64,000 bases of DNA from positions 62,001 to 126,000 of the forward strand of contig CAMPDV010000442.1 in the NCBI GenBank assembly GCA_946699065.1. Reading direction: 5' to 3'. Shown one piece after another: positions 22,260-53,640 of the stretch. Below the pieces are notes generated by a model. The model saw only the letters and a program-made list of their open reading frames with translations. It was not told where the DNA came from and did no database searches. A program made the position numbers and the translations under genes. The DNA comes from Loxodes magnus (Eukaryota; Ciliophora; Karyorelictea; Loxodida; Loxodidae). Position 1 is the stretch's first letter. Each line of letters begins with the position of its first letter.

Positions 22260-23550
22260 GCGAAAATGATGCTTTTTTATTAAATTTTTCACATTTTCAA
22301 ATTTCTTCTCAACTTTTAATTTAGCATAGTTTTTTATTAGAAATTCCTAATATTTTTTTTTCTAATAAAATTTCTATTAAGAATTATTTCCATCAAAGGT
22401 AAAATGATTCTCTAATTTTCAATCAAAATGATTGATTAATAATTTTTTAGAAAATACCCTTTTTTTTGAAAAATTCATTTATTAAATCTTCGAATACTTT
22501 CAAATTTTTATTTACATTTTTCTACTTTTATAGATATTTAGAAAAATTAAATTTATTCCATCTCAAAAATTTTTGGTTTTATAAATCGCTAAGAAAAAAA
22601 TGCTTTATTTTTGAATCTTTTTTTCTTAAACAATTTTCAAAAATTTTATAAACGATCAAAACAGAAATTTTCTAACCATTTTTTTTAATTTTTATTCCTA
22701 TTTGTGATTATTTACCCCGAACTTAAAAATTTAGTCAGTCCCGATAATATCTTCTACTGTAAAACTCTGAGCAAAAGCAAATTTTTAATTTTTCACACAA
22801 AATACTCTCATAAAATTCTCTAAAAAGATTGCTTTTTTAAAAACTATTTTCAAAAGAATGACTCGTAAAATATAATATGCTTATACTTAAATTTTATTAG
22901 TTAGTTCATTTAAATTAATGAAAAAATTGAAACAACAAATCACAAAATAAATTCAATAACAACTTTTATCTCAGAAAAATTAACAAAAAGCATCAACGAT
23001 TTTTAAATTTCTAAAATAAATTATAATTCCAATCAACAAATCATTAGTACTTCTAAAAATACCTTATTATGTAAATCACTAAGCAAATAAAAGACTTAAT
23101 AATTGTTTAACACTTTATTAATATTAATTACTATGTTATCTGAATTTTAAAAAAAATTGAAAACTTTCTTTGAAGTAAAATTTATTCTATTGATGCTTTT
23201 GTTTAAAAAATAAATAAAAAATTTTAAAACATTCATCTTTATTCACTAAATACTAAAAACCAAATTAATAAAAAATCTCTATAATTTGATATAAATAAAC
23301 AAAGACATAATCTAGATAAATTAGTCTCAAAAACATAATATATTTTAACCTATAATACCAAACAATATTAAGACCTTTAAATAAACTAAGAAAAATACAA
23401 ATAAAATAAATATACTTTAATAAACAAAAAAGAAATTGGAGCTTTAGAAAAATCTTAAGTAATATAAATATATTCACTTAGATTCATTACTTTTAATGAT
23501 AAATTACTAAATCGTAAAACTTAAGCTAGTCTTAAATAAGTTCATTCTTT
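22260..23550. other. A+T-rich intergenic region
   Basis: Rich in T runs on the plus strand. Nothing recognised on either strand; short open frames at 22466 and 23477 are low-complexity Phe/Leu/Tyr/Ile strings. Confidence 0.55.
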
Positions 23551-23555
23551 AACTC

Positions 23556-24155
23556 TCAACTCGCAATCTTCCATTTTCTAGCAGTATTGTCCTACGCTCC
23601 AGATACTAATCATCTATTGTCGCTACTCAAAGCTATAAAATATATATCTAATGAATGCTCTTATAAAGTCTCGATACACTCACCCGTACTAAAGTTCCAT
23701 ATCTTGATTGTACTATCCACAGAAAATATAACACTTGAATCGGTACCTAACTGAATTCTACGTACAACACTTGTGTGACCTCGAAGAGTACGAATTAACT
23801 AACCAGTTAAGAAGTCTCATATCTTAATTGATTTGTCCTACGAATCTGATACTATATACTTGATATCTTAAGACACAATTACAAATGAAACTGAGTTTGT
23901 ATGCTCAGAAAAAATTCGATCAAGCTGATCAGTTTGGAAATCCTAGATCTTTATTGTTTCATCATCAGATGCTGATATGATTCATTTCTGTCAGGGGAGA
24001 TAACTATTGCTCTAACTGAATCAGTATGTCCTACCAAAGTTCTTAGGAAGGTGTGTGTCTGAAAATCCCAGATCTTGATGGTTTTATCATTAGATGCTGA
24101 TATGATTCATTTCTACTTAGAGGAGATAATAATATTTTTCCTGACTTAATTCACT
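23556..24155 (-). pseudogene. WD40-repeat protein, 5'-truncated
   Basis: This is the C-terminal end of a WD40 beta-propeller protein, presumably a protein-interaction scaffold. About four and a half repeats are visible, for example [38 protein letters not shown] and RWLVSGAQDNTARKWKIAS, followed by TGA (23556-23558). The canonical Trp-Asp of one repeat is TGA GAC (TGA at 23817-23819), and the K-W-I/R-W-L positions are also TGA. A one-base deletion in a GGGG run near 23990 breaks the frame relative to its own neighbouring repeat. Upstream of 24155 the sequence turns A+T-rich without further repeats. It is closely related to the gene at 44.9-46.1 kb. Confidence 0.85.
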
Positions 24156-24424
24156 ACAATTAAATAATTAAATAATTTAATTATTAAGTTTCCTTAGAAG
24201 TACTCTATTATTAATACTTTGAAATTAAACTTCTATTTCTTTATCTTTAATCTAGATTATATAAAACTGATTTTAAATAGTCCATTATACAAGCTTTTGC
24301 AATTTTACCTATTTTATGTCTTTTTATGATTAAATAAAGAGATAAATAGTTATATCCAAAGTTTTATACCTAAGAATTTACATACTTATTTAGTAGCTTT
24401 ACTATATATTTATTATAAAAACCG

Positions 24425-24905
24425 CCATAGTTGTTCGAAGGTGAACAACAAGGTCATCTTCATCAGAGGTTGGGGAAGTTAAGTACCCATAATCGGCTTT
24501 ATGTCTTCCTCTGCTTTGGTTTGGCCTCGAGACATAAGATTCTTAGACCTTCGGTATTGTCTTAGTTTAGTTTAATTCTGGAACGAAAAAGAAATAATAT
24601 TGCGAGCTTCATCAGAGGTGGAGAATTTAAGTACCCATAATTGACACATGTCGTCCTCTGCTATGGTGATGCAATGAGACACAATCCTGCCATGTCCTTG
24701 GACCTCCAACAAGTATTAAAGATTACGAGTATTCTTAAATGATATCAGTATTGAACATTTTTATCAGTACTGAATAATTATACCAGTATTGAACAAGGTC
24801 TATCAGTATCTGGTAATTTTATCAGTAACAAACATTCTTGTCAGTATGAAACATTTTTTTTAAAGAGCTGCGCACCAATGAGAGTGCTACTCGCTCTCTA
24901 ATCTT
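24425..24905 (+). mobile_element. SINE-like element, family B, with duplicated body
   Basis: Two related body modules (about 24440-24545 and 24595-24700) share CATCAGAGGT, TTAAGTACCCATAAT and GT-TCCTCTGCT. They match the body of the copies at 48.9 and 54.4 kb. They are followed by a short tandem repeat and the terminal hairpin GAGCTGCGCACC-AATGAGA-GTGCTACTCGCTC at about 24867-24898. Duplication of the body before the common 3' hairpin is not seen in the other copies. Confidence 0.75.
24720..24862 (+). repeat. short tandem repeat, TATCAGTA unit of 18-22 bp
   Basis: Six imperfect units of the form (A/T)TCAGTA(T/C)TGAACATTTT lie between the SINE body and its terminal hairpin. Unit lengths vary between about 18 and 22 bases. 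Confidence 0.75.
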
Positions 24906-24949
24906 ATTTATTTAATTCAAATAAAGCTTAAAAGAGAAATTTTTTCTGA

Positions 24950-27240
24950 CTTTAACAGTACTTGCAAATATTCTAGGGTATGTTCGCTAGCTATTAACAT
25001 AATATGTCTATATCCTCAACAATGATTAATTGTAGAGAGTAAAATGCCTTTAATAGCAACAAAAATAAAGCCAAATACAAACATTAACTAAAGTGAATAA
25101 TTTGATTTTAGTAGAGAAAGTCGCGAAGACTAAATTACAATTATAAAATAATTAGACCAAGCAGGAGAAAAAGAATACTGAACGATAAAAAATGTTCATT
25201 AATCTTTGTATAAAAGTACTTAATAAGTGCACAAGAGATAATTATGATTCAAGTCATTACCCTAATCCAAAATTTTTTTAAGCAAAACTATTGATTTTTC
25301 ATTTTTCAAACTTGAACATTTCTAATCTTCTCTTCTATAATTCCTTATGAAAGACTTTAACTAATTAATTTACTTTAGAAAGCTAAAATCTTGAGAAATT
25401 TAATTTATATAAGTCTAATCATATTAAGCTAGTTTCTTCTAATATTTTCCAAAAGAACTAATGACTAGAAAATTCCTAAAATAAATCCCTATAGTAAAGA
25501 CAATAAAAAATGAGTTTAAATTCATCAAAATCTTAGTCACATATACAAATTGTGCTTGATTAGATATCAATGTGACGATAACTGAGTTCATATTAGAAAT
25601 TATAAGAGTAAGTTCTCAGATTATAGATGAAAATAATCTCCTGAGTAAGAAGTTTATTAAATTTCGTGTATCATACTTAAGAAAATGCACTTTAGTTATT
25701 TTACTCTTTATCTTTTTTTCTTTTTAAAGTAGATATAAATGAGGTCTTTAGGAAACATCCTTAGAAGAACCTGCTATTTTTGTTTATAAGTAAGATGCTT
25801 ATTAACTATTGAAAAGTAAGATATTTTTGAGCATCAAATTGATATTTTTAGATGCTTTTATTTAAATATCTTTGATATGGCTAATTATATTTAAGAACAT
25901 TTTGACAGTAAAAATACAATATCAGAGTTGGAGTTCTCTTAATTGATTTTGCTTAACTTAAAGTAAAAGTTCAATTATTTCATTGTTTCTAAGTGGACAA
26001 AAGGAAGTCCATTTAAATCAATAAAGCAAGACTCATTAAAAGCAGATTAAGAAGATCTAAAGGCCTTTCTTGATATTAGTCTTTAAGATTTTGCTATTTG
26101 CTAACAATTCCTTTTTGTCCAGATAAAATAGCCCAACTTATTATATCATCACCATTATCTGCTTTAGGTAAAATAAAAATTCTACATAGTGTATTAAAAT
26201 TACGTGGCGATATAACTATATACTTAGATAATATTGCAACTTTTTTAGAGATTGCTATTCTGAAACAAGAGACTTTTACTGAACAGTGAAGCTTATAGTT
26301 TTTCTCCTTACTAATACCTTATGCAAATAATTCTTTTTTACTTAATTGGCTTTTCAAATAATCTAAAAGCCATTTCCTTAATATATTATCGAGTATTTTC
26401 TCAAAGTCTTTTAGGGTGGCTATTAGTTATTTTTCATACGACCATCTAGTATGCGGACCTATAATCTATTAAGTACTTCAAATTTTCTATATTTTAGTGT
26501 GTTTATGAATAAATCTAAATTAAGCTGGATGCAAAATATTCGATAATAAATGTATTTATATAATCTTTAGGCTATTGCTTTGTTATATATTTTTAATAAA
26601 CATTTTAGTATAACAATATGCAATCAGTTACTCCTAACATTCATGTTTCTTTTCTTAAAAGTAGAGAGAATATTACTTCCTTCATTGTATTTGGTATACT
26701 AAAAGTTCTTAACGTATTATTTATAATCCAACTTAGCATACTGATCTATCTCATAATTATTATAATTACATTAGATTAAATCCAGTAAAACCTCTGAGAA
26801 GTTACTAAAACTATATTGCTGGCAATGCAATTATGTGCTATATTAAAGAATCTGAATAATATGAGGTAAATATAAAATCAAAATAGAACAAATGATTTCA
26901 GATCAACAAGTATAATATCATTTTATGACATCAAGGTAAACGAGTGGTAATAGCATGCAATATAATTACCAAAGCCTGCATGCGATAAAGTAAGTGTCTA
27001 TATGAATGAGAATGAATAAGTGTATATATGGGAAGTGTTAATCTTCTTAATTAAACATGTGTGTATGATTAAAAGGTAATATTAAAGGATGGGTAATAAT
27101 ATCCAAAATCAGTATCTACTTTGAGATAAATGGTAGCTACTAGAATAACAAACTATGGATCTGGAGTAGTAATAATGAACAAAGCCGAACGTAATTTATA
27201 CATATGACATAAAAGGAGTAGTAAATATTATTGATAAAAA
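24950..27240 (+). other. unassigned, decayed open frames at 25490-26290
   Basis: No family recognised. Between about 25490 and 26290 the plus strand has successive open frames with varied composition, such as a hydrophobic segment near 25690-25730 and LIISSPLSALGKIKILHSV near 26130-26185. The last frame meets TGA at 26287-26289, after which the composition becomes low-complexity. Frames change at least twice, so this would be a broken gene. Around 26950-26985 GCATGC occurs twice about 30 bases apart. The rest is A+T-rich. Confidence 0.3.
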
Positions 27241-29000: not shown

Positions 29001-29612
29001 GACTATTTATTTTCAATTTTTTGTTCTTATTAATTAATCATCAGGTATTCGATTCTCCTTTCGAGTTCTTACAAAGTTCTTAGGAGTTTAAAATTTTCTA
29101 ATTACATAGCTTGGAGTGCTTAAAATATTTTTTACTGATCAAAACTTGATTGAGATGCCGTCTTTTAAGAAGAGACTTTTTGCAAGAAATGTTCGCATTT
29201 TTTTAATTATTCTAATAGTTACGATAATACTGTGAGACTAAAGTCCTTTATCTTCTAAAATATTTTGTTGATGGTTAATAGTCCAATAATTTATATTCCA
29301 TACAAAGATTATATAATCTCTACGCTTTTTTATCCAGAATTTAAAGAAAGATTGCAAGCAAGTAAAAGTAAAAAAGTATTAATCTTGGATATACTTTTAT
29401 TAAAAAAAATGATAATAAGACATTATTTAAATAGAAATCCAACTTAGTAGGAGATTCTGAAGGAATGAAGAATTCTAGTTAAAAGGGGTGCGCTGAAATA
29501 CGAACGACTAATTAATAAAAATGGGATATATAAATATTAATTCTATAGCTAGTAAATAAGTTGCATTATAATAGTTCACTTTAGATATTTATTTTGATAT
29601 TGTTCTATTCAA

Positions 29613-29938
29613 TTATAAATAAATAGGGAGGAGCAATCCTCCAACTGAAACTGACTTAAACTCTAGTTCCAGGAAATACTCCATAGGTGAAGAACCAGCC
29701 AAGAGAAGAGAAGATAAGATCGAAGAAACATCAAGTAGCATTAATGACGAAAGATGCCAGATACTAAGTTCTCTAAGGGTAGTATTCCGATCGCGGTCCT
29801 ATAGAAGACAAAACTCATAAGGGAATGCTAGCACTGTGGAAGACTTCAACAAGGAATTTTTTAACTTTAAAAATATTTATTAAAGAGTTGCGCACCATTG
29901 AGGTGCTACGCGCTCTATAATCTCATTTATTTATTTAA
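29613..29938 (+). mobile_element. SINE-like element, family A, full length
   Basis: The element starts TATAAATAAATAGGG and then forms GGAGG-AGCAAT-CCTCC. It continues with AACTGAAACTGACTTAAACT and ends with the hairpin AGAGTTGCGCACC-ATTGA-GGTGCTACGCGCTCT (29884-29916). Its body is about nine-tenths like the copy at 47.6 kb. It lies inside the endonuclease ORF of the surrounding LINE: upstream reads DIVLFN, downstream EARTQDP, which join into the family motif. TATTCAAT before and TATTTAAT after look like an imperfect target-site duplication. The TATAAATAAATA head could be part of the element or a promoter-like sequence. Confidence 0.85.
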
Positions 29939-33148: not shown

Positions 33149-35563
33149 TCACAAGTTCTTTAAGTATCTCTTCTTGTCCTCCTCACTCATCTAGATGTTA
33201 GTTATTTAGCAATTCTTAAATCTTAATCCATATTCTTCGTAGATTTAGTTTCAATCCACATGCTTTATATGTTAGAGGATATTTTAAATATTACTTACCT
33301 ATTATACCTAGTTGAATTAATCATAATCATAACTCGATACTCTTTATAAATTCCACCTTCTCATATGATAATCGTTACTCGAACCTCCAAAATATCAATG
33401 ACCATTGCCTGATATCAACCAGCAGTTATCTCTTGATACATCCAAACTACCTACATAATCCGTGTGACCTTATAATGTACACACACTCTACCAAGTTTTC
33501 GTATTCCATATTTTTATAGATTTGTCGTAAGAACCCGAGATAATATATTTGTTGTCAGATGTTAACTTTACTACTAATACATAACTTGAGTGACCTTCGA
33601 GAGTTTGAATAAGTTAACTAGTTATAAAATCCCATATCTTTATCGTATTATCTCTACTTCCCGATACGATTCAGTTCTAGTCACTCGATATCGCTACAGA
33701 GTATACACAGCCATTATGTCCCTATAAAGTTGTCTATAACTAACCAGTTTTTAAGTCCCATTTCTTTATAGTCTCATCGGCACTTCCCGAAACGATTCAG
33801 TTCTAGTCACTCGATATTGCTACAGAGTATACACAGCTATTATGTCCCGACAAAGTTCTCTTTAACTAACCAGTTGCTAAATCCCATATCATTATCGTCT
33901 CATCAGCACTTCCCGAAACGATTCATTTCTAGTCACTCGATATCACTACAGAGTATACACAATTTTTATGCTTCTACAAAGTTCTCTTTAACTAACCATT
34001 TTTAAAGTCCCATATCTTTATCGTCTCATCAGAACTTCCCGAAACGATTCATTTCTGGTCATTCGATATCGCTACAGAATACACAGAACTCGTATGTCCC
34101 TACAAATTATTCTTTAACAAACCATTTGTAAAAGCCCATATATTTATCGTATTATCAGGATATGCTGAACCTGATACAATTCATTTCTAGTCACTTGACA
34201 TCGTTAAGGTTGTGATATAGGAAGTGTGTCCTTAAATGATATGAGGATACTCAGTGGTTATGTAAGTTAGGTTGGAGTTAACGAGGTTGCAATTGATTAA
34301 CTTCGTGTTTCTCAAATTGCATAACTGTAGGTTGGAGTTAGAGAAGTTACAATTAGTAAACCTTATGTCAGATAAGTCAGCATTGAACAAGTTTAGATTT
34401 TGGAAGTTCAATTGCTTGAAATTGAAGTTTATATAATTAAGGAGAGTTATCGCATTTGCTGCATATTACTGAAATTCTTAAGATTTTCTAGCTAACTCAA
34501 AGACTTATAATGACTTTTGATAAAGTTATTAGTCTTTAAGCAATGAAACTTGCTACATTATGATATATTTTTCTATCAAGCCTGGCTTATTCAGTGGATC
34601 CTACTTTAATATTTATAAATCTATATTCTCCTATTTAAAGCGATTCAATAGTTAACGTAATTAATCGAAAATCGTGCTACTAAATTCTTATATCTTATAG
34701 CTAGAGACTATTGGCAAATCTTACTTTATTATAGCTTTTTCCATTTCACGTAACGTAATAATATTTAATTAAGTCTCTTAGATTTCTTCTTCTTACTACT
34801 TTTACTTTATCATCATTTTGTCGATTTGTTTTTCATTCTGTTTGAAATACTTAACTACCAGCAAGTGAATTTATTACTCCGTTAGTAATTAACCAAAAGA
34901 TTACTATTTTAAAAAGCTAAAAATTTCAAAAGTTTAATCTTGGATCATTAACTTAAAACTATTCATATCTATAGACTAAACTTAATTATTCTTTAGCTCT
35001 TGAACTTAGTCTAGAATTCGTTTAAAAGCTTCTTATTACTCCTTCAATTTCTATTCTTTAATTTCCAGCGAACTTGAATCTTGCTAATAAGATAATTGTT
35101 CTATCTTATGCTTAATACTGTCTAACTGATTTAAGTAATCGCCTTATTGCTGAATACTACTTTTTATATTTACTCTTATAGCTTTTAAGAGTTGCTAATA
35201 AACTTGACTCAAAATTAGCCCAAATGTCTTTTAGTTATCATTGAGTGATCTTATTGAGCTTTAATAATAAATCTATTTCTAGTAATATTCTTCTTTCAGC
35301 CATCTTATTAAGCTGTTAATCTACATTTCATTATAGAAACTTCTTAAATGCTACAAGTCTTATTCTTTCAATGCTACATTTTATAGATCTTAAGGTCTTA
35401 TATTAAACATTAAGTTATGATTCGTACACGCAATCTTTTTTATAAGCTGATAAATTCTACTAACACATTAAAGACAAAAAATACATCCACAAGGAAGCTA
35501 TTTTGCTAGATACTATTACTAATCTATCTACTGTCGACAATTTGGACATTGCTTAATATCCAT
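33149..35563 (-). CDS. RING, coiled-coil, pentapeptide and WD40 protein
   Basis: Probable E3-type ubiquitin ligase or scaffold of about 804 residues in one unbroken frame. The RING-like finger has C6, C9, C25, C27, C30, C33, C46 and H49. A long Gln-rich coiled-coil region follows (about 60-330). The helix AANAITLLN leads into pentapeptide repeats (about 379-435: NADLSDIRFTNCNFSNSNL and others) and seven WD40 repeats (about 445-740, such as VYSVAISSDQKWIVSGS). Five repeats use TAG for Gln and TGA for Trp in DQ(K/N)WIVSG. The start is the ATG at 35561-35563. I place the stop at the TGA at 33149-33151, though the TGA at 33251-33253 is possible. The helix-pentapeptide-WD40 arrangement is known from STAND/NACHT-type proteins, but no NTPase motif is seen. 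The RING suggests ligase activity, by inference. Confidence 0.9.
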
Positions 35564-38475: not shown

Positions 38476-39054
38476 TATTTATTATTATTATTTATTAGAT
38501 TAGTTATTGTAAATCTTTCTAGGAAAAATTTTGTTTATTTAACGATTTGCAAAAAATATTTATAAAGCTTTAATTTTCGTTTATTTCTTCCATACCTTTT
38601 ATAATTTCAATTTTTTTCTTTTTTGTTTAACAAAAGATTTTACAACATTTTTTAATTTAATTACTTTGGCCATTTTCAAACATAAAAATTTATTTATATT
38701 TTTTATTTTTATTAATTTATATAAATAGAACTATTCACATATTAAAGAGATCTTATTCTTCTCTATTTTGTTATTTTTATTTAATTTTTTTTGTTTCTTT
38801 TCTTTTAAATTTTTCGTCATAAAATGTTTTTTAATTAAATTTTATTTTTTAATTTTAAATGCAATTTTGATAAAAATTTAATTGTCAATACTGAAATGTT
38901 AAATTACCTATTAAGGTTAAATAAACTTTTCTTTTTTTATAGTGTTAATTTATTAGATTTTGATGGTGTAAAATTTTCTAAATTTAGGTAGTTATTTTCA
39001 ACGTATATTTACGTGGTTTTTTGTTTATAAGGAAATGCTTTTCTAAATTTGGTG

Positions 39055-40164
39055 ATGTAAACTGAAAAACCCTAGATTTCATAGTGTCAATCATGTAAAG
39101 GAGCGTTCGATAGATAGATGAAAATCCCAATGATCCTTCCTTGCAAGCACAACATATGCTATATTTGTGTCAATGACCAGTTCAAGAAAAACATGAGCTT
39201 AGTATGTTTATTCTAAAGCTGCTAATAAGTCTATGAGATACATCCAGTAAATTTATAAAAAGATGACTAGTTACTCAGCCATCTAGAACAAAAGGGAGTT
39301 TTAGAAAGTATAGCATTACTAGAGAGATAATAGTAATAAATACATTAAGCTTATTCATAATTGACTGAAGTCTATAGTAATTTCATCTAGTAGTTAATCA
39401 AGCATGTAAACAATTATATTTTCAAGGATAATATAAATCTACAAAGATAATTGAACTAATAGGCTAAAAAAATACAAGGTTAACTAAAACGCTTGAAATT
39501 TTAAAAGTAATTAATCAATAACTAGGGAAGCAACTAATAATAGTACGTTTCATAAGTTTTAGCAACTGATTAATTTGAAAAGTAAGTATAAAAATCGGTC
39601 TCTGATGCCTAAAGAGTCATATAGTAGAACAATTTGGTATCAACTAAAGTTTATGAGGAGTTAGACAGCTATAAATTCGGTCATGTTTAAATGATTTAGG
39701 AAAACAACCATCTTAAGAATGAAATGCAAAAGTTGAATCTCTAAGTTTAGCAATTGCAAAAGTAGCTATCTTAATTATAAGATTCTTTGAGCCAATAGTA
39801 GTAATAAAAGCAGATAAAACCTATAGACATCTAAATAAAAATTATGTCTCCAAATAATAAATCAGTATCTCTATAAGTCAAATAAGAGACTACAATAAAG
39901 TAGGTAAAGGAATAGATCAACTCAAAAACTAATTTATTAGTTTAAGGTTTGGATATCGCTAAGAGTAGCTTCATTCTGGATGATAATAAAACTATAGCTC
40001 ATTATAATACAGTAAACGGTGAATAGTTGCAAATGAAATTCAGTAAGTTCAAATTTAATATGGGATAATAAAACTACTATAGACTGTATCTAATTTATAA
40101 TGCTAATAAAGAGAAAGGATGTAAACTCGATCTCAAGCAAATTCTTATTTAGGGGGTAATGTGA
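39055..40164 (+). CDS. RING, coiled-coil and ubiquitin-like protein
   Basis: Probable E3 ubiquitin ligase-like protein of 369 residues with no internal TGA and dozens of TAA/TAG Gln codons. The N-terminal RING finger has C11, C14, C30, H32, C35, C38 and then C51 and C56, in the form CQSC...LPCKHNICYIC. Residues about 60-250 are a Gln-rich coiled coil. Residues about 257-330 resemble a ubiquitin-like fold (SVSLQVKQETTIKQVKEQIN ... FILDDNKTI). RING ligases transfer ubiquitin from an E2 to a substrate; the ubiquitin-like part could mediate proteasome or substrate contact, by inference. The start is the first ATG in frame before the RING; the stop is the TGA at 40162-40164. A 32-bp minisatellite begins about 200 bases downstream. 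Confidence 0.85.
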
Positions 40165-40364
40165 TATTTAATAATTTTAAAACGTTAGATGGTAATTATT
40201 TTGATATCTAAAGATTGTAATATTCATTCTAAATAATCGTAATATTTAGATTGTAAGTTTCGGGTTTAAATAATCCTTACTTAAGGGGGTAATTTTCATT
40301 TCAAAACTTTATTTTATTTTATAGGTAAGTTTGAGTTTAAGTATTCTGAACCATAGAGAGTAAG

Positions 40365-40872
40365 AAGACATTTAATGTGAAAACGAAGATAGTAAGTAGA
40401 CATTTAAAGTGAAACTTAAGATTGTAAATGGACATTTAATGTAAAAATGAAGCATGTAAGTTGATATTTAATGTGAAAATGAAGGAAGTAAGTTGACGCT
40501 CAATGTAAAAATGAAGATTGTAAATTAGCATTTAATGAGTAAATGAAGTTAGTAAGTTGAAATTTAATATGAAATGAAGTTGGTAAATTAACATTTAATG
40601 CGAAAATGAAGAATGTAAGTTGAAAATTAATGGGAAAATGAAGTATGTAAATTGATATTTAATATGAAAATAAAGTTAGTAAGTTGACATTTAATGTGAA
40701 AATGAAGCAAGTAAATAGACATTTAATGTAAATGAAGATTGTAAGTCAACCTTTAATGTGAAAATGAAGCAAGTAAGCAGATATTTAATGTGAAAACGAA
40801 GGTTGTAAGTTGATATTCAATGTGAAAATGAAGAACGTAAGTTGACATTTAATGTTACACTAGAACGTAAGG
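40365..40872 (+). repeat. 32-bp minisatellite
   Basis: About sixteen tandem units with consensus GTAAGTTGACATTTAATG followed by TGAAAATGAAGNNN. Most are exactly 32 bases, with a few of 30-31. Because 32 is not a multiple of three, the array is unlikely to be translated. Every unit starts GTAAGT or GTAAAT, which resembles a 5' splice site. Looser GTAA-rich motifs (GGGGGTAA) flank the array on both sides, at 40153, 40285 and 41008. Confidence 0.92.
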
Positions 40873-40879
40873 AGTTATT

Positions 40880-41785
40880 TTGTTTTAGGATGTAAGAAAT
40901 CTTTAAAGGATATTTATTTAGATTGTAGATAATTATAATTATTTCTGAATAGGTGGTAACATACTTAATTGCTATTATAGAATGTATGAAAATTTGAAAA
41001 TATTTAAGGGGGTAAGATCAGTTATAGAAATAAGGATGTAATTTATTATCATTAATACAGTGATAAATTGTTGAGAACTCTATCGAACTTAATACTTTAT
41101 TAAGATTCTATTTAATTAAAAAATTATATAAGATAGTATTTTAATTTTATTTAAATTTAAGATAAATTATAAAAATAAAGATAAGCAACTATAAATTTAG
41201 AGAAGCAAAGTAAATCATACAAATATAAATTAGCTTATTATGCTTTTATTTTGGATGACTATAAACTCCTTTATTTAGCTTAATGAAAATAATATTATCT
41301 TAATAAAAGCCAAATGCATATCTCGTTGTTTAATAAATTAAGTTTCGAATTAAGATTTTAATAAATATAGTGACAGTTATCAAGATATTAGCAAGATTAG
41401 ATAGATAAAAAGATTTTGCTTCTTTGAAGGGATTAATTCTATCAGTAGATAATAAATCGACAGGATTGAAGTTTGATTTTATCAATAGAATTAGAAATTT
41501 TAAGTAAAGTGAACCTCAGTTTCATCTATTTTTTATTTATTTCAGAAGATTATCATATAAAAGGAATTAAAAAATGTTGAAAGGTAATATAAAAGAGCAA
41601 AGAATTATAGTTTTAAATTTAAAAATATGTAATTAAATCAAACTGTAAAAATGTAAAAATTGCTTCAAATAGTTTTAATTTAAGAAAAGCATCTAGGAAT
41701 GTTAGATAAAAAAAATAGAAATAGTGAAAAGAAATATATTTGTACTTTGCCATTTAAAAGTTTATTAAAAATAATTTAATTTAAA
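40880..41785. other. unassigned region
   Basis: The plus strand from about 41220 to 41740 is open in one frame with several TGA codons and moderate complexity, but shows no motif. No RNA gene was recognised. Confidence 0.35.
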
Positions 41786-42064: not shown

Positions 42065-44895
42065 AACATTTTTTTTAATAAAAAATTTATTTTATTTGAA
42101 TATGACTTTTTTTATCTTTTTTATATTTAAAAAAATTGAGGATAAAATTGTCAATTATTTATAAGAGAATAATTTAGATTTTTTAAATATGATTTTAAAA
42201 ATGCTTTACTAAAATTTGTGTTAAACATTTTTTAAATAAATTTAAATTAAAACTCGATTTTTTTTATTTTTAATTAAATATAAGAACCAAATATAATTAT
42301 ATGTAACAATTTATTATCAGAATTAATATAAGAATTAATTGTAAAAAAATATAAGAATTAATTGCAATAAAAAATTAAAATAAATAAATATTTAATTTTT
42401 TATATATTTTACTTAATGAGATTTTATTTACTTATTTTCATAATTTTGATAATTTTTTACGAATAAATTGTGGGAATAATAATAAAGATTTTTGTGAAGT
42501 ATCCTTTCAAAAAATGTATTGGTTGATAAAGCTTCTAAAAAAGGAAATCAAAAAAGTTTGATATAAAATTCCGTTTTATTTTAATTTTTTAATTCAAAAG
42601 CAATTTTAATTTTGATACAATTATATAAAAATTAAAAATATTTAAATTTAGTATGTCACAAAAATCTTTTGTGGTAAAATCCTCGATAATTTTTATTTTA
42701 TCTTTTAGTACATTAACCTTAACTTTTACGATAACAATCAAAAAAAATCTTGCTCCGTTTGAAAAATTTGATTCTTTTCAAAAAGTTTAATTTTTAAGCA
42801 ATTTAAATTCTTTTCAAATAGACACATATTAGAATTTTTTATTTATAAAATTAAGAAAATTTATATTAATTTATAATCATCCTCAAATTTTAAAAGATAA
42901 AAAATGTAAAAAAGGTAAAATTAAATTTATAGTCCTCGAAAAGAACTTCACAACTAACTTGATTCCGCTTTCTCACAAACTAAAGGATGACTTAGGACTT
43001 CGTTAGTCCGCCATCCTTATTTCCCACACAAATACCATTTTTTCTTTTAGTTTCTATTTCAATTTTCGTTTTATTCTTGAAATCTTGAGTTGTAAAATTT
43101 CTTTCTATATATTTATTCTGTTCTCTTTAGTCAAATGCAGAAAATTTCGTCTAATATTTATTTCTTATTATTTCTTTCATTTTCATTTTTCTTTCAGCAC
43201 TATCTTCAGCTGTGGTTTTTCCGATATATATAGCACCTGATCTTTCTATAATAGTAATTTATCTTATTTGTCTCTTATTATTATTATTCAGGTTCGATTT
43301 TCATAGGAATGCTTGATTACTAATCTTGTAATTTTTAAACTGCTAGATGTTATTATTCTAACCTTATTTAAAGTTCTTTAATTTCATATAAGAATCTAGA
43401 GAATTAGAATTAAAATAACTAAGGAACTTCATCGAATTATTTGTCAATATCTTCAAATTTAGCTACTATAGACTCTTAAAGCTTATCAAGAATTTCTTGT
43501 ATGGATGGAAATTATAGATCTAGTAATTAAATCAATTTATCTAACAATTTTTCTAATTTTTCTACTCTTAATCTTTGCTGCTTTAACTCATATTATATAT
43601 TTGATATCTTTTGCTGCACTGATTACGCAAAGGATGCCTAAGATTATTATTCTTAGTTCTATTAAGATGACTATTCGATTAAATTAGGTAGCCATTCTTT
43701 ATTTTAATAATATTGTTAATAGAAATCTATCACCTCTTAGGTTTCATGTTTTTATGTAAAATAAACTTAAATTTGAGAATTTCTTTCTTTAACTTTATAG
43801 CACTATATTATAAATTTTCTTCGGATATTTTGAAAATTTCTTTAATTTATTCCATCGCAAAAATCTTTGGCAGTATAAAACTCTGAGAAATTTTTTTTCG
43901 TTTTAACAACTTTTTTCCATTTATCAACTTTTGAATTTATCCTTATTATCTCTGATTTTTTTTTCCTATAATTTTGTAAAATTTTTAATTTATTTTTTTT
44001 CAAAACTTATTTATATAGCTTATTCTTTTTATCCCCAAAATTAAAATTTCTGTCCATTCTCAAATCTTATCTAGTATAAAACGTGGAACAAAAACGCATT
44101 TTATTTTTATTTTTAATAATTTATTTTTCTCTCTTCACTTTAGCAAATCTTTATACGTTCATATACATTTTCTAAAGCCTCACAATATTCCATTTTCGTT
44201 TTTTCATTCAAAATTTTTTTCTTTAATTTTTCGATTTTTTATAAATTTTTATAAAAAAAGGCTAATTAAAATTGATTAATAAATTAAACCTAAATTAAAA
44301 ATTATAGTTAAATATTAAATTAAATTTTTATAAATTTTAAGCTAAAATTAATTTATACTTTTTTAAATATATTCATAGTTTTAATCAGAATTAGTAATCC
44401 ATCGTAAAAAACACCTATAGTACAAATATTTCAGCAAAAAAGGACTAATAAACTTTTACTAATGTTCTAACACTTAAATTAATACTTAAATACCAAAATT
44501 TAAATTAATTAAAATTTATTTTTTTTCTTATTTTATTTTAAAATAAATGAACCCACCTAATTTTAAAACTTTTAATACTTAACAATCTAAAAATCTTTAT
44601 ATTATTTATTATATACTTCTTAATTAAATAAATATAAATATCTCACTCTTACAAACTTTGCCAAGATTGAAAATAAGTTCTTAAAACATATATTAGTAAA
44701 CTTAAGTCATAATGTTTTAAACATTAAAAAAAGCATTAAGATTTATTGAAATCTTAGCTACAATGAAATATTAATATCTTTTAATTAATCATCACTCATT
44801 AAATATCTTATACTCCCTTTTAAATTTATAAAGTTTTAATTGTATTTCATAATTAACTTCTTAAAATTTAAAAATTATAAGTCTAAAATTCTTAC
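42065..44895. other. A+T-rich region, no gene recognised
   Basis: Contains long A and T runs. A more G+C-rich patch at 42940-43040 holds the hairpin listed separately. Region 43030-43700 is open on the plus strand without a recognisable motif. No RNA gene was found. Confidence 0.45.
42983..43014 (+). other. isolated stem-loop
   Basis: GGATGACTTAGGACTTCG followed by TTAGTCCGCCATCC can fold into a stem (GGATG/CATCC with inner GGAC/GTCC) in otherwise A+T-rich DNA. It could be the remnant of a SINE or a small structured RNA; neither is proven. Confidence 0.4.
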
Positions 44896-44901
44896 ATACT
44901 C

Positions 44902-46124
44902 TCAACTCGCTATCCTCCACTTTCTCACTGTCTTGTCATACGCTCCTGATACTATCCATTTGTTGTCTCTACTTAGTGCTATAGAATTTATATATGCTTC
45001 GTGGCCCAATAGAGTCTATATACATTCACCCGTATTAAAGTTCCATATCTTGATTGTTTAATCACCTGATCCAGAAAATATAAATCTTGAGTCATTACTA
45101 AGTTGAATACTACGTACATTATTTGTATGGTTTTGAAGAGTTCTAATGCATTATCCCGTTTAGAAATCTCATATTTTAATTAAATTGTCAGCTGAACCTG
45201 ATATTATTTATTTGTTATCATTTGTTAATATTACCGAAGCAATTCATTCTGCATGTTCAGAGATAGTTCTATTATATTATCCTGATTATAAATCCCATAT
45301 CTTTATCGTAGCATCTTCAGATGCTGATATGAGATGTTTTGAATCAGGTGAAAATACTACAGATAATACATAACTCGTGTGTCCCTAGAAAGTATTCTTT
45401 AACTGACCAGTTGTAAAGTCCCATATCTTTATCATATTAATAAAATCTAATGAACCTGAAGCAATCCATTTCATGTCATTTGATATCGCTACAGAGTAAA
45501 CACTACTATTATGTCCCTTCAAAATTTAGTCTAAAATAAGTAAAAATATACCTTAACTCTTATCATAATTTATTTATAAATTTGCTTATATCTAAGTATC
45601 ATTCGCTTACATATCAGATTTATTTTTTATTTACTCTCTTATATCCTAAGTCAAGTTCTTTACCTGCTAGTAGTCTACTTAAATTCTTTCACTCTTATTT
45701 TTCTCCTAATAAACTTTATTTATAAGTACGTAATATTTGCTTCAATAATATCTAACTTGCTAGATAACTTCTATACTTAACTAATATAACTCTAATTCAC
45801 ACTTCTTGTTATGTTTTCTATTTTTTCTTTTATTTCTTCACTTTTCTAACTGACAACTTTCTCTGCTTCATTTTAAATTTACTTAGTTTTATCTTAAATA
45901 AGCTCATTCGTAGCCTAATAATCCTAAACTTATTATATTTTATCCAATTTATCAATCAACAACTACTAAATCTATTTTAGCGTATCTTATATGCTTATTA
46001 TTTGCTGTTTGTTTTCCATTATATTATTCTTAATCATCTCTCAATCTTCTTTAAAAAGCATAGTAGACTAAAAAGAAACTTATGCTATCAAGATAATAAA
46101 AATAATAATTAGACAAACTTTCAT
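44902..46124 (-). CDS. WD40-repeat protein with signal-peptide-like start
   Basis: WD40 propeller protein, probably a secreted or endomembrane interaction scaffold. It starts at the ATG at 46124 with MKVCLIIIFIILIAQVSFQ, a basic residue then a hydrophobic core, typical of a signal peptide. A coiled-coil region and then about six to seven WD repeats follow (for example [39 protein letters not shown]), ending RKWRIAS-TGA (44902-44904). Trp is TGA in LIKIWDF (45169-45171), in EHAEW and in KEDWEM near the N-terminus. One frame change, equivalent to losing 2 or gaining 1 base, occurs near 45740 between the coiled coil and the repeats. It may be a short intron, an indel or an assembly error. The truncated paralogue at 23.6-24.2 kb shares the same C-terminus. 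Confidence 0.83.
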
Positions 46125-46129
46125 AATAT

Positions 46130-47640
46130 TCCATCTTTATTCCATTTACTATTTTCTTTAAATCTTACTTCCTCAATCGAAGTCTTTGGTATAGTCTCCT
46201 TCATAATTTTTTAGTTACTATTTTCCATTTTTTATATATTGATATATTTAATATATGCATATGCGTTAATAAAACGGATAATTCTTAAGAATAGAAACAT
46301 AATTATTTTAATTATTTTATAAACTATTTTATAATATAAATTATCATAATATTAACGAAAATAAAATAAATCATTGTTACAAGTATTGAGGGAGATGATG
46401 TTGATTCTCTGATCAAGCATTCTAGTTTTATGGATAATTTAAAGTTTCTTTTGCTGAGAAGGTTCTTGTTTATGTCAGTATAAGCAAGTGAAAAAATTCT
46501 TTTTGATTATCCACTCTTGTTATCGACTTCTAGCCTGTCAGTCTTTAGTTATGGAACTCACTGACCGAAGTTTATTGAATTAAGCAACATGATATCTGCA
46601 TTATATACATTAAAATAGTGCCTTAAGTTATCTAGTTGTAAATTCCTTTCCATTTCCTCGGAAGATAAGTTTTTTAAGTTGATATTTGATTATTTGAAAT
46701 AAACTAGATAAATTAAATGATTATTTTATCCTCTCATTTATACTAAAGATCTGAGAGTGTTTTATTTGTAATTTATTAAAAGTATAATGCTTCTCTTGAG
46801 TTCGCCAGTATTCTTGTGAATTTTTTTATATAGTAATTCCCTTTTGAGTAATATAGAAGCGTTATTTTTTGTCCTAATTTTCTAATTTTTGTTTTTTATA
46901 TGTTTTTAAATTCTTAGCACCATTTTAGAAGATGATAGATAGAACCATAGTAATAATATTTTTTATTGGTTATTTTACTATAATTAATATGGTTTTCGTG
47001 AAACATGGACAGAATGCCTTTACTTTGGATTCCTAAATCATTTCAATTAAGGTATATTAAGTTTGAATTCTCCTTTTACTTCTGAAATTTAATTTTTTTA
47101 ATTTTGTCAATTCTTTCTTTAGGTAATATATTGACGCCTGCATGTCTTGAAATTCAATTCTTGTGAAATTTAATCCACTCGTTCTCTTAACATCATATTT
47201 TCGTATCTTTGATCACAAACCATCTTACATACTTCTTCTACATCATATGAGACATACTAATCTTCAATGTACTTAACCTAATAATAGTCTTCATTCTAAG
47301 CTTTAAACAGTCTTATTTTTTAGGTTTATTTAGTTTTTATTTCTATTTATTTCTTAAGTCTATCCAGAAGAGAGTTGGTGTTTTTCTTGCTTCGGAAGAG
47401 AAGTTTATAAACTAAATACTTCCTTTCTTCTTCTCATTTTCTTCTTCGAATTCAGAAAACACTTTTAGATACCTTCCATTTTATATAAATATAAATTAAA
47501 TATATTTAAAAGTTAATAGATAGCTAATTAACTAAAAAGAAGTAATTACTTACTTAGGAAAAAGAGAAAAATTAAAACCCCACTGTTCAGCTAGAGTCTC
47601 TGATTTCAGAATAGTAATTTCTAAAACTATTACAATATTA
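46130..47640. other. unassigned region
   Basis: Upstream of the WD40 gene there is a short alternative frame (MKETIPKTSIEE.., minus strand, about 46155-46215) that could be an upstream exon. The rest is open on the plus strand from 46380 without a recognisable motif. Confidence 0.35.
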
Positions 47641-47642
47641 TA

Positions 47643-47955
47643 TTATAAATAAATAGGAAGGAGTAATTCTCCAACTGAAACTGACTTAAACTCGTGTACC
47701 AGGAAGTACCCCATAGCTGAAGAACCAGTCAAGAGAAGATAAGACAAGATCGAAGAGGTTCAAGTAACATTAATTTACGAAAGATACCAAATACTAAGGT
47801 CTCTTAGGGTAGCATTCCAATATCTGCCCTATAGAAGAAAGAACTCCTAAGAAAATGCTAGAACTGTGGAAGACTTCAACAAGGAATTTTTTAACTTTAA
47901 AAATCTTTATTAAATGCGCATCATTGAGGCACTACGTTAAAAAAGTGCATAATCA
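47643..47955 (+). mobile_element. SINE-like element, family A, nearly full length
   Basis: Starts TATAAATAAATAGGAAGGAG and follows the 29.6 kb copy at about nine-tenths identity, including AACTGAAACTGACTTAAACT and the CTGTGGAAGACTTCAACAAGG tract (split here). The terminal hairpin is disrupted: TGCGCATCATTGAGGCACTACG is followed by a run of A and GTGCATAATC instead of CGCTCT. Confidence 0.85.
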
Positions 47956-48279
47956 TTTAATTTTCCATTATTTCATTTTTTATCTCCAAATTATTTAGTT
48001 TTACTTTTGATATTCTTTTTAGACAAAAAATAAGTTTAGTTTATAATTTAAATAATGTATCTTCTGAAATTCTATTAAATATTTAAGATAATACTTTAAA
48101 TTTAATCTCTATAGCAAACAACATAATTCAACTTTATACATTAGTAGATTTAATATCAATATTCAATATAACTAACTTCAAATTCAATCAATCTCTTATT
48201 ATTTTTTGTACTTTTAAGAATCAAACCTTAAACTATATAAAAATTAACAATTCTAAATTAAAAATTTATAAAAAAACTT

Positions 48280-48605
48280 TATAAAGCGCGTAGCACTTTT
48301 GTTGGTGCGCAGTTCTTTAATAAAGATTTTTAAAGTTCTAAAATATTCTTCTGAAGTCTTCCACTCTGCTAGTATCCTTTGTGATTCTTGTCTTCTATAG
48401 ATCGTGATTGGAATATTCCCTAAGAGACCTTAGTATCTGGTATCTTTCATCAATAACGTTACTTGATACCTCTTTAGTCTTTGTTGTCTTTCTAGGCTCC
48501 TTTTAGATTCTTGTTCGGTTCTTGCCTCATAGGTACTTGCTTGTATCAGATCTTAAGTAAATGTCAGTTGGAGAATTGCTCCTAACTATTTATTTTATAT
48601 ATGAT
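48280..48605 (-). mobile_element. SINE-like element, family A, full length
   Basis: Minus-strand copy. The hairpin AGCGCGTAGCAC..GGTGCGCAGTTCT lies at about 48284-48315 and the element head is at 48565-48600 (CAGTTGGAGAATTGCTCCTAA, split). It sits only ~330 bases from the plus-strand copy at 47.6 kb, in opposite orientation, so their 3' ends face each other. Confidence 0.82.
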
Positions 48606-48892
48606 TATAAAGTTAAAACTTGATGTAATGTTTATCTCTTCTTTAAAAATCCTTGTTATTGAGGTTATTGTTCTTATGCTCATAAATGTATCCATAAATT
48701 ATTTAAGCTAATTTATATATATATTTATCTTTTTTTACTTTATTTCTATTTGACTATTAAAAAACTACTAAAATTTGTTATTCCTAATTTAAATCTTTGT
48801 TTTTTAAGTTAATTTAGTATACTTTGAACTTTATACTTTTAATAGCAACTTAAAATATTTATTTATAATAAATAATAAATAAATAAATAAAT

Positions 48893-50234: not shown

Positions 50235-51240
50235 TTGGTATTTAAAATAAATGATATATAATAAATATAATTTAAATGGTTTTAATCTAAAATTAAATTT
50301 GAAGTTTATTAAAATAAGTAAATTATTTATTTCTTTATTTAGTTTATTTTTAAATATTCTATAATTAATCATCTAGCATATTGTTTTGAAAACATATATA
50401 GTAAAGATATCCCATTTAATTATTAAATTATTGCCATAATTAATGATCTTTTAACTATCTTCCTATCTAAATAAGTTATATAAGCATATTAATTTAGTCT
50501 TTAATATAAGTTCAATAATACTCCCTTATTTGTAATAATTTATCTTCTATTAAGTTATCTATAAACTATTTATAATATATCATAATATTTATATATATTC
50601 AATAGATTAAAGCAGAATACAACTTAATATACCACTATCAAATATCTAGATACATTAATATTAGACTAACCTAACCTAGTTTATCATACTAATTGTAATC
50701 ATCTAATCTAAACTGTTATATTTACACTTTTACCTCATTTATTTACTTTATAATCAAATGTAAGTCATCTACCTATGCTAATACTGCTCTTATCCTTTTA
50801 ACCTAACTAACGCTATTCCTACTGTCTTACCTTGTTCTCACACTTTCTGTAGTTTATGCTTAAGGACTTAGTACTATTTATAGAATCAAATCAGCTGCTG
50901 TATTTGTTATAAGGTATTTCACTTTAGATTTGAAGATTTACCTATAAAGTAAGAATGGGTAGAGATATTGCAATAATAGTAAGAGAAGATGAATATTAGA
51001 AAGTAATGGTAATAGAAATGAAATGAAGAAGTAAATTGATGAGAAGCAAAATAAAATAACTAAGAAGCAATAAATAGTTAGCTATTAGTTTATAAATCAA
51101 ATACTCTCATAACATATTACATTACTAAAATAATAGGAACTAAATAATATATAGAAATATAGCATCCTTCTATAATATTTTATTTCTATCATCTAAAAAT
51201 ATTCCTCAACTACAATCAAGTAACAATATTAACGGATAAA
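50235..51240. other. spacer upstream of the kelch gene
   Basis: Mostly A+T-rich. The plus strand directly upstream of the kelch start (50950-51240) is open in a neighbouring frame and might contain an upstream exon, but shows no motif. Confidence 0.4.
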
Positions 51241-51247
51241 AGCTAAA

Positions 51248-52117
51248 ATGATTGATTAAGGAATTATTAAGCCAGATATAAAATAAATAATTTAAGCTGA
51301 GTAGAATATAAAGGAAAGTAAATAAATTCATTTATTTATATGGGAATCTTAAATTCTTTTACTATTTAATATAGAAACAGAATAAATTAAAAAAGTTTAA
51401 ATAAATACTTAAGTTCCTATTTTAAGTAGAAGCGTTGAATATAGAAATAAATTATATTTAGTTGGAGGAAAAATACATGAATAAGGAGTAAAAGATACTT
51501 GATAATTAGACTTTTAAGGAAATAGTAGAAAACTAGCTGATCTTAACTAAGGAAGATTTTTATTTGGAATAGCAGCAGCTTAAGATTAAATTTATGTAGT
51601 AGGAGGATCTTTTGATTATAGTAAAGTTTTTAGAACAGTAGAAAGATTAAAGATAGGAAGTTAAAATAAATGATAAAAATGCTCTTAGTTTCCTTTAGGA
51701 ATAGCATATTAGACATTAGTAGTAGATAAAAGTGAATAAAATATTTATTCGTTTGGAGGAATGAACTAAAATAGATAAAGTTTAAATGACATATGAAAAT
51801 ATAATATAAAGAACGATATATGAAATAAATGTAATTTAATTATTCCTGAAGCTGTTACTTATCCTTTTGTATTACTTGAACCTCTAATTATAGTTGGAGG
51901 AGTAAATAATTTTAATAATGAAGAATTTTTAAGAAAGATGTATAAAAGAAGCAATCAGCAATGATAATAAATAGAATTTAAACATAATTCTTATAATTTA
52001 TCAGCATTTAAAACTAGAGATAGATTTGCTTATACTTTTATTTCTGATTATGGTAAGTTTTTATTGTTGAGAGTCGACGTAGTAAATTTGGGTTACAAGA
52101 CGTTAAAAATAAAGTGA
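51248..52117 (+). CDS. kelch-repeat protein
   Basis: Kelch beta-propeller protein of about 289 residues, a likely protein-interaction module. Four kelch repeats carry the Gly-Gly pair and the spaced Trp: LYLVGGKIHE, IYVVGGSFDY, IYSFGGMNQN and LIIVGGVNNF. The conserved Trp is TGA in all of them: KDT-W, QNK-W-QKC, NDI-W-KYN, NDI-W-NKC and QQ-W-QQ. Before the repeats the protein reads LLLFNIETEQIKK, then PILSRSVEYRNK, typical of a first blade edge. The start is the ATG at 51248; the frame upstream is also open, so the N-terminus may be longer. The gene ends at two consecutive TGA codons (52115-52120), supporting TGA as the stop. Four blades suggest a partial propeller or dimerisation. Confidence 0.85.
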
Positions 52118-52119
52118 TG

Positions 52120-53640
52120 AAGTTAAAGAGACAAATATGAATTAATTTAAAGTATTTTTAATAATAAATTTTATATTATTTTATATTTTAAATTTTTATT
52201 ATTTAGCATTTTAGAAGTTAGTAATTTGATAATTAATAATATTTTATATAAGCCTTATTTTAAATATTTACAAGAATAAAATAATAATTTCTTACTGAAA
52301 ATAAATATTTAAGCAGTATTATTATGAAAATTTTAACCTATAATTTTAGAATAAGTACCCTATTTTGGCTTTGTGCAATGTAAAGTAGTTAGAAAAATAA
52401 GAAATTATCTATATGAAATATAAAATTTTATATATTTTTGATTTATTTAAGCAACTTATTAAGAAATTATAATAACTATAATTTTAAGTGAATTCTCTTT
52501 AAGCCATCATGTATTTTACCAGTTAATATCACTAGCATCCTTTATGCGATTCCGACTCAATAATACATGATTACATTTACTTCTTCATAATCTTCTTCCA
52601 TAAGATCTAATAAGTTGGTAATTTGAGTTAGTTTATCTTAAAATGTGCTGTTGTAATAATTGAAAAGTGAAATATATAAATTTTTTGAGTCTTGATTCAT
52701 ATTTAATTTTGTATATGTATCTTAGATATATCTTATAAGTTTTAAAATATTATAATAAAAGCGATCCAGTTTAGATTTCTGAATTTAGGATTTTTGATTT
52801 TAAAAATAAATGTAATTAAAGTTTTGTTGATGCAGCTGTATAATAATTTTGATAGAATTGTATTTGTAAATATAATAATGATATTTATAGTGGTTTATTC
52901 TTATATATTTATAAAGTTTATTATAAAAAATGTAAACTTTAACTGATTTATTATTTATCTCTAATCTGTATATATTACTTAGTTTAATTAAAGATACTTT
53001 ATATCACAGATATTCAATTTTATATACAAATTTTAAATCATTATCATTTTACCTATATCATTTTTAAATCATACTAAATTCTATTTTCTAAAATTCATCC
53101 AAATTTACATTTTTATAAACCTAATTTATAAGATGATAAAGTAAGAGTTTTATTAGCAATCTTTAAAAATTAAGTAAGATATAAATAATTTTAAGATAAA
53201 TAAAAGAAATTAAAATATTTTAATAAATCTTACCATTAATCTATTCTATTCGGATTTTATAAACCTAAAACTCATAATATTTATGTATATTGTAAAATCT
53301 TAAAATTATTTACTTTTTCTATAGTAATTGCTTTAAAATAAATAAAAAGCAAATTACTTTAAATTTGTTTAAACTAAAATATTTACTTTATTCATTTTAT
53401 AAATTAATTAAACTCTTTTATACCATTAAAGATAGATCAAATTTATAACTTATGTATCATCAATTTCTTTTATAGATCATTTTTATATTATAAAATATTA
53501 CTTACAAATTTATCTATGCACCATTAATTTATATAACAAAAACCAATTATATTATCGATATTTAGATATATTTTAAATTATAATAAACTATTATATATTA
53601 AATAAAATATTTCCTAAGAAATAATCGACCAAAAACTAAC
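52120..53640. other. A+T-rich intergenic region
   Basis: No gene, RNA or repeat array recognised. Confidence 0.5.

Follow-up and report, generated by a model that had tools for sequence, protein, structure and literature searches.

Support for glutamine at UAA and UAG, and for both tryptophan and stop at UGA, in a genomic region of Loxodes magnus

The 64,000-nucleotide stretch of DNA analyzed here (the window; C442:62001-126000 in an assembly of 705,730,643 bp and 7843 contigs) is best explained as macronuclear DNA of Loxodes magnus, or of a very close strain, read with the karyorelict code, in which UAA and UAG (UAR) specify glutamine and UGA specifies tryptophan within genes and stop at gene ends. 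We place the probability of this reading at about 0.95, a figure that excludes the question of whether UAA can also serve as a stop. The code itself is already known—it has been published for karyorelicts and, in all likelihood, for the assembly analyzed here. The initial annotation had stated that all three standard stop codons are sense codons here; this is borne out for their meanings as Gln, Gln and Trp, but that account omits both the role of UGA as the main stop and a possible stop function of UAA.

The gene from which that statement arose occupies 33149..35563 on the minus strand, extending from an ATG at 35563 to a TGA at 33151-33149, and comprises an N-terminal Cys-rich part that looks RING-like by eye, a middle part and a WD40 part, as judged from translation, codon counts, stop-masked Pfam searches and alignments to WD40 proteins in the PDB. 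Its frame contains 41 TAA and 32 TAG codons (73 TAR) together with 8 TGA codons, and translation of the plus strand over the same interval gives no comparable protein. A Pfam search, which had been proposed as a check, recovered the WD40 family with E=5.9e-60 when TAA, TAG and TGA were all masked as X, and because the score survives masking, the frame is real independently of any assumed code. The intact frame of 805 codons described earlier therefore stands, with the corrections that it lies on the minus strand, which had been left unstated, and that its length counts in the final TGA (33149..33151, minus strand), which probably acts as the stop and is followed directly by a TAG and then by an AT-rich stretch. 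The RING finger that had been assigned to the same protein can be recognized by eye as a pattern of cysteines, but no RING family is among the 25 of 39 Pfam families listed for this gene.

The earlier argument rested on the motif DQ(K/N)WIVSG, in which TAG and TGA were said to stand always as Gln and Trp. Pattern matches and codon reading place this motif, in the form D(TAG or CAA)(K/N)(TGA)IVSG, in five tandem 126-nt WD40 units (33660..34192, minus strand), with matches at 33660, 33786, 33912 and 34170 and a CAA copy at about 34038-34060, the latter computed from codons 502-509 of the gene. The Trp position is TGA in 5/5 repeats and the Gln position TAG in 4/5, the second repeat having CAA. 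A degenerate form of the pattern (TAR, TGR) has 4 matches in the window and a maximum of 0 in 100 shuffles. By the comparisons made here, the motif is nonetheless weaker evidence than had been claimed, in that the units carrying it arose as tandem copies and the residue opposite its TGA varies. When 80 bacterial WD40 loci are aligned, the eight residues met most often in this column are T, R, Q, I, L, K, Y and F, without W, and the solved WD40 proteins shown in the PDB alignments have mostly T, not W; as the column varies outside this genome, the motif alone is no proof of Trp by outside comparison. Matches to the motif DNA pattern in two viral contigs (46% and 42% G+C), which lack similarity to the window, were set aside as chance.

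Within the genome, the motif gives better support for Trp than it does by outside comparison. The genome's own WD40-coding satellite has CAG and TGG in the motif in 190/190 counts, which come from 8 loci of a single contig (C1503), several of them overlapping, so that copies were counted repeatedly and are not independent. This satellite is built of 126-nt units and was seen on contigs C1503, C119, C9, C620, C272 and C1832 in a genome search in which 150 of 98,940 first-look candidates were scored. Its matches are spread over about 89 kb of C1503, where three loci of 3.1 kb each (L083, L085 and L087) contain 18.9 to 24.7 copies at 94-95% match according to TRF, and its G+C content is 0.38-0.46, against about 0.24 in the window. 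In the GHxx(.)V column of the satellite (L083-L090, overlapping loci again counted repeatedly), TCA (Ser) was counted 90 times, against 70 for TGA (Trp); Ser (145) and Trp (126) likewise head the bacterial counts at one column of this type in the second WD40 gene of the window. The word WD40 is absent from the main text of the L. magnus paper (PMC11441545), and a single literature search yielded no paper on the WD40 satellite.

The same use of the code had been claimed for a WD40 gene at 44902-46124 and a kelch gene at 51248-52117, and these two differ in what they contribute. The first (WD40 part at 44880..45570, minus strand) gives better evidence for Trp than the motif does. The stretch 44800-46140, with all three codons masked as X, matches Pfam WD40 with E=4.7e-47, and its codon 324, a TGA at 45169-45171, falls at the Trp of a WD dipeptide, a column in which TGA stands against W in 597/606 aligned residues (several alignments per locus, 80 bacterial loci). 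The kelch-repeat gene (50855..52231, plus strand), identified by Pfam, alignments and codon counts, contains in-frame TAA, TAG and TGA and matches Kelch_1 with E=1.7e-6 when stops are masked as X. The TGA of its NK(TGA) is aligned with W in 9tsn_A and KLHL3 (one alignment each) and with L, N or Q in others, the latter being shifted by one or two at the conserved Trp; NDI(TGA)NK aligns with W, and NDI(TGA)KYN with a Glu of 9tsn_A. These alignments, mixed and shifted against each other, lend weak support to UGA as Trp.

A further gene on the plus strand (38872..41178) encodes a RING-like part and a ubiquitin-like part, the latter at about 39838-40035, and has many in-frame TAA and TAG codons. 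With stops masked, the ubiquitin family is matched at E=5.2e-5, with a score of 23.4 bits that falls short of the family's cut-off (25.4), and the solved structures matched include ubiquitin chains (best 1.1e-9), with weak TRIM25/RING matches at 0.005 to 0.08. A tandem repeat at 40345-40851, within a segment whose composition predicts coding sequence, has a unit of 32 nt, which is not divisible by three. In no frame of the window do more than 144 codons pass without a TAA, TAG or TGA, so that a stop-based gene finder would miss genes of this kind. Of two self-trained gene finders, the first drifted onto a few segments and was discarded, and the second gave 42 segments of at least 150 bases. 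Of thirty extended stretches searched against Pfam after masking of stops, 4 matched a family, including the sub-cut-off ubiquitin match, and the 26 without a match were not used. An Rfam search of the window gave no match.

A third WD40 copy on the minus strand (23449..25107) is decayed and frameshifted, with TAG at the Trp of one WD dipeptide and TGA at that of another. Such a copy is what would be expected if the in-frame stops belonged to pseudogenes or an assembly artefact, an explanation to which we attach hardly any weight. Many contigs hold extended matches to the tubulin, actin, HSP70, histone and eRF1 families with in-frame TAA and TAG, and in many rows TGA, and the tubulins compared have open frames with an excess of differences at third codon positions. 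The window also contains diverged interspersed repeats (19660-20225/28477-29049/36834-37224; 9866-10493/53594-54213; 47625-48614; 29603-29920), several of them mutually inverted, which lack a clear codon-position pattern and are probably old mobile elements. Repeats of the window outside the WD40 genes were excluded as paralogues, most of them having no codon-position pattern and a decayed appearance.

Conserved proteins elsewhere in the genome support Gln for UAA and UAG and Trp for internal UGA independently of the motif. In the beta-tubulin L150, compared with 6u0h_B with stops masked, TAA stands at Q in 10/10 cases, TAG at Q in 5/5 and TGA at W in 3/3. Log-likelihoods from four HSP70 genes against eight bacterial DnaK sequences favor Q over E for both TAA (12.3 vs. 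5.8) and TAG (19.1 vs. -12.6), in a comparison in which 48/49 sense codons give their own residue. In HSP70 columns where one residue reaches at least 85%, TAA falls at Q 13 times, E 3 times and K once, and TAG at Q 4 times and at E, G and A once each. When the four HSP70 genes are compared with one another, TAR is paired 52 times with CAR and 40 times with GAR, although GAR is 3.5 times commoner in these genes (181 vs. 52 codons). The pairing, the likelihoods and the 15/15 TAR positions of L150 together uphold UAR as Gln, and the WD-dipeptide column and L150 do the same for UGA as Trp. The ciliate code of table 6, with UGA as a stop only, was rejected because UGA occurs internally at conserved Trp positions, both in the WD dipeptide and in L150.

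The WD40 columns themselves (80 bacterial loci) do not separate Gln from Glu, as TAA scores 6.0 for Q and 5.4 for E and TAG 8.3 for E and 5.8 for Q; the best residue for TGA, summed over 9 columns, is R, not W. In this table, 38/45 sense codons give their own residue, and only the single-column results of the gene at 33149..35563 and of the second WD40 gene were used, the row for 23449..25107 being partly misframed. Glu is thus tolerated at TAR positions of WD40 columns, as a code of the Blastocrithidia type (UAR as Glu, UGA as Trp) would have it. Such a code is refuted for the conserved tubulin and HSP70 columns by the TAR codons of L150, all of them at Gln, and by the HSP70 likelihoods, and is extremely improbable for this genome.

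UGA is the main stop as well as a sense codon. Among 53 chosen gene ends, 47 are TGA and 6 are TAA (5 distinct). They were drawn from 63 listed ends (55 TGA and 8 TAA) and kept because homology fixes their position, either to the codon or to within a few codons; the ten rows of a group labelled "tdiv", including L164 and L168 with TAA, were left out, their end having been picked by eye as the first stop-like codon after an acidic tail. The end motifs were read off just before the stop-like codon, so that the lack of TAG or any other codon at these ends is owed in part to the selection. Among relatives, the end falls at the identical place in the actins, in canonical H3, in the EDEELL tubulins and in the LTD(M/V) H3 variants; elsewhere it agrees to within a few codons. 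Many of the 47 TGA ends belong to closely related paralogues or to copies within arrays, such as 9 beta-tubulins, 7 actins sharing one motif and 5 H3. The cytosolic HSP70 genes end in EEVD-TGA-TGA. Alpha-tubulin, HSP70, divergent beta-tubulin and actin occur in many similar tandem or clustered copies (C64, C45, C86, C441, C266 and C711). Outside the end table are HSP70 L121-L123 and L125-L132, histones L195-L197, the actin relatives L209, L212, L213, L214 and L216, and the alpha-tubulins L137, L138, L140-L146, L148 and L149, all of these alpha-tubulins ending in TGA. Frame breaks, undefinable ends or closeness to a row already used led to the omission of the tubulins L151, L152, L157, L159, L161, L162, L165, L167, L225, L226, L229, L230 and L233; neither L165 nor L167 shows a TGA, over the 103 and 79 codons read, respectively.

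The TAA ends occur where close relatives have TGA. The beta-tubulin relatives L153 and L236, the second of which looks like a copy of the first, end in EDEELL-TAA, against EDEELL-TGA in L154, L155, L234 and L237; the H3 variants L183 and L186 end in GEKHLTDM-TAA, against GEKQLTDV-TGA in L184; and the actin relatives L207 and L208 end in KTF-TAA and KTC-TAA, against KCF-TGA in actin. Two ways of reading these ends have to be weighed. The one toward which we lean is a graded three-way code, in which UGA is Trp or stop, UAA is Gln but ends a minority of genes, and UAG has no meaning other than Gln. The other is table 27 taken strictly, with UGA as the sole stop, as the L. magnus paper calls it (PMC11441545), so that a terminal TAA would be Gln and the protein would run on to a later UGA. 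This variant is possible, though we consider it doubtful. An in-frame TGA does follow the TAA after 5, 23 and 40 codons in L183, L207 and L208, but there is none within the 68, 55 and 41 codons read for L153, L236 and L186, and L153 is itself an open frame of 449 codons with a third-position excess of differences against its relatives. The five G+C values computed after TAA ends are 0.12-0.25, as low as after most TGA stops. A change from TGA to TAA is a single and common transition, making TAA a likely product of a lost stop, the number of ends compared is small, and genes ending in neither codon would have been dropped by the way in which ends were chosen. As a null rate, TAA makes up 68/1100 of the codons in the 20 positions that follow TGA ends, by which five TAA of five would come to about 1e-6; given the single transition and ends that were not chosen blind, no probability was taken from this value. 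In L. magnus transcripts, according to the published account, UAA and UGA, and not UAG, are depleted in the roughly 20 codons before stops (PMC11441545)—a difference that a UAA stop in a minority of genes would explain, and one that speaks against UGA as the sole stop.

A set of gene ends with UAA where close relatives have UGA could add something to the known code, as it would allow a stronger and a weaker stop to be compared naturally within the same cell. The abstract of a 2022 article by Seah et al. in Peer Community Journal reportedly names UAA as a possible stop in a small minority of transcripts of karyorelicts; if so, a UAA stop has already been proposed. UAG is found at 0/53 chosen ends, uncertain ends having been left out, among them L209, L216 and L229, which have TAG near the expected end (in the tubulin L229, TAG-TAA after the tail). 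The code of Condylostoma is table 28, in which each of the three codons serves as sense and as stop, and the UGA and perhaps UAA ends, together with these three omitted rows, would be in keeping with it. The 0/53 count, with its restriction to clear ends, and the match of the genome to Loxodes point the other way and make table 28 an improbable choice.

Candidates for the decoding apparatus fit the preferred reading of UGA as Trp within genes and stop at their ends. A tandem array of tRNA-Trp(CCA)-like sequences with a spacing of ~241 nt lies at C148:155434-165068 (34 of 40 matches listed), and the three copies sequenced (L247, L248 and L249) have the anticodon stem TTCGA/TCGAC, whose top pair is T-C, which leaves 4 bp. 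Copies with a normal 5-bp stem are found on C110 (L239, L242 and L244); L243 has an inner stem mismatch and received no ARAGORN call, and the neighbors L245 and L246 were scored as Arg(CCT) and Met(CAT). The tRNA-Gln with UUA or CUA anticodons that the initial annotation had suggested looking for were sought and did not appear: search patterns that were narrow, and from which absence does not follow, turned up no tRNA for UAA or UAG, two of them having 0 matches and another leading to tRNA-Trp. A UUA-anticodon-like stretch (L238), possibly a tRNA-derived repeat, was dismissed, as ARAGORN finds no tRNA in it. A tRNA family search gave 63 high-scoring matches, and the 26 loci scanned were all Lys, with Ala beside some. 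Arrayed tRNA matches also occur with a spacing of 527 nt on C103 and about 1750 nt on C78 and C158, being Lys, in some cases plus Ala, in the loci scanned.

The usual forms of two stop-reading motifs of eRF1 are TASNIKS and YLCDNKF. Here, the eRF1 genes L134 and L135 have RAQNIKS and FLCENTF and end in DEDFL-TGA, and the Gln of RAQNIKS is coded by UAA in both gene copies read. The best match to the eRF1_1 family, L133/L241 (C2:1762690-1763037), looks by eye like Pelota/Dom34, not eRF1. Single eRF1 changes have no simple link to codes, according to Swart et al. (2016; PMC4967479), and for this reason the changes are described here and not taken as proof. The array of 4-bp-stem tRNA-Trp(CCA) and the altered eRF1 would thus agree with decoding of UGA as both Trp and stop.

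As to mechanism, UGA would most likely be read by the near-cognate tRNA-Trp(CCA) with its anticodon stem shortened to 4 bp, which would compete with the eRF1 bearing changed stop-reading motifs, and nearness to a short AT-rich 3' end would decide for stop. The roles of tRNA-Trp and eRF1 in decoding, and of position in the choice, are inferred. For related codes, Swart et al. (2016; PMC4967479) put forward a model in which tRNA and eRF1 compete and the end of the transcript settles the outcome, and 4-bp-stem tRNA-Trp(CCA) are described as raising UGA readthrough in test systems (PMC13092985). The same paper reports such UGA-reading tRNAs from Condylostoma, Blepharisma and Loxodes (PMC13092985), citing Swart et al. 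(2024, eLife) for the Loxodes tRNA-Trp.

Finally, the code described here can be set beside four known systems. It is closest to karyorelict table 27, which is stated for L. magnus, itself a karyorelict, with UGA as the only stop and also as Trp upstream (PMC11441545), and the earlier attribution of UAR as Gln and UGA as Trp to karyorelicts is thereby confirmed. UAR as Gln, UGA as both internal Trp and terminal stop, and low G+C after stops are common to both; 6/53 chosen ends (5 distinct) are TAA here, whereas UGA is the only stop in the paper (PMC11441545). With Condylostoma magnum, it shares the use of all 64 codons as sense codons and a context-dependent stop, but three stops are inferred there, and UAG is not among the 53 chosen ends here (PMC4967479). 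The broken top pair (T-C) of the three C148 copies is shared with the 4-bp-stem tRNA-Trp(CCA) system, with the difference that 5-bp-stem copies are present here as well, on C110 (PMC13092985). The dinoflagellate Amoebophrya ex Karlodinium veneficum likewise translates all three codons and possesses a 4-bp-stem tRNA-Trp(CCA), this form being among its 7 tRNA-Trp(CCA); tRNAs for UAA and UAG were found there, in contrast to the result obtained here with narrow patterns (PMC12005148).
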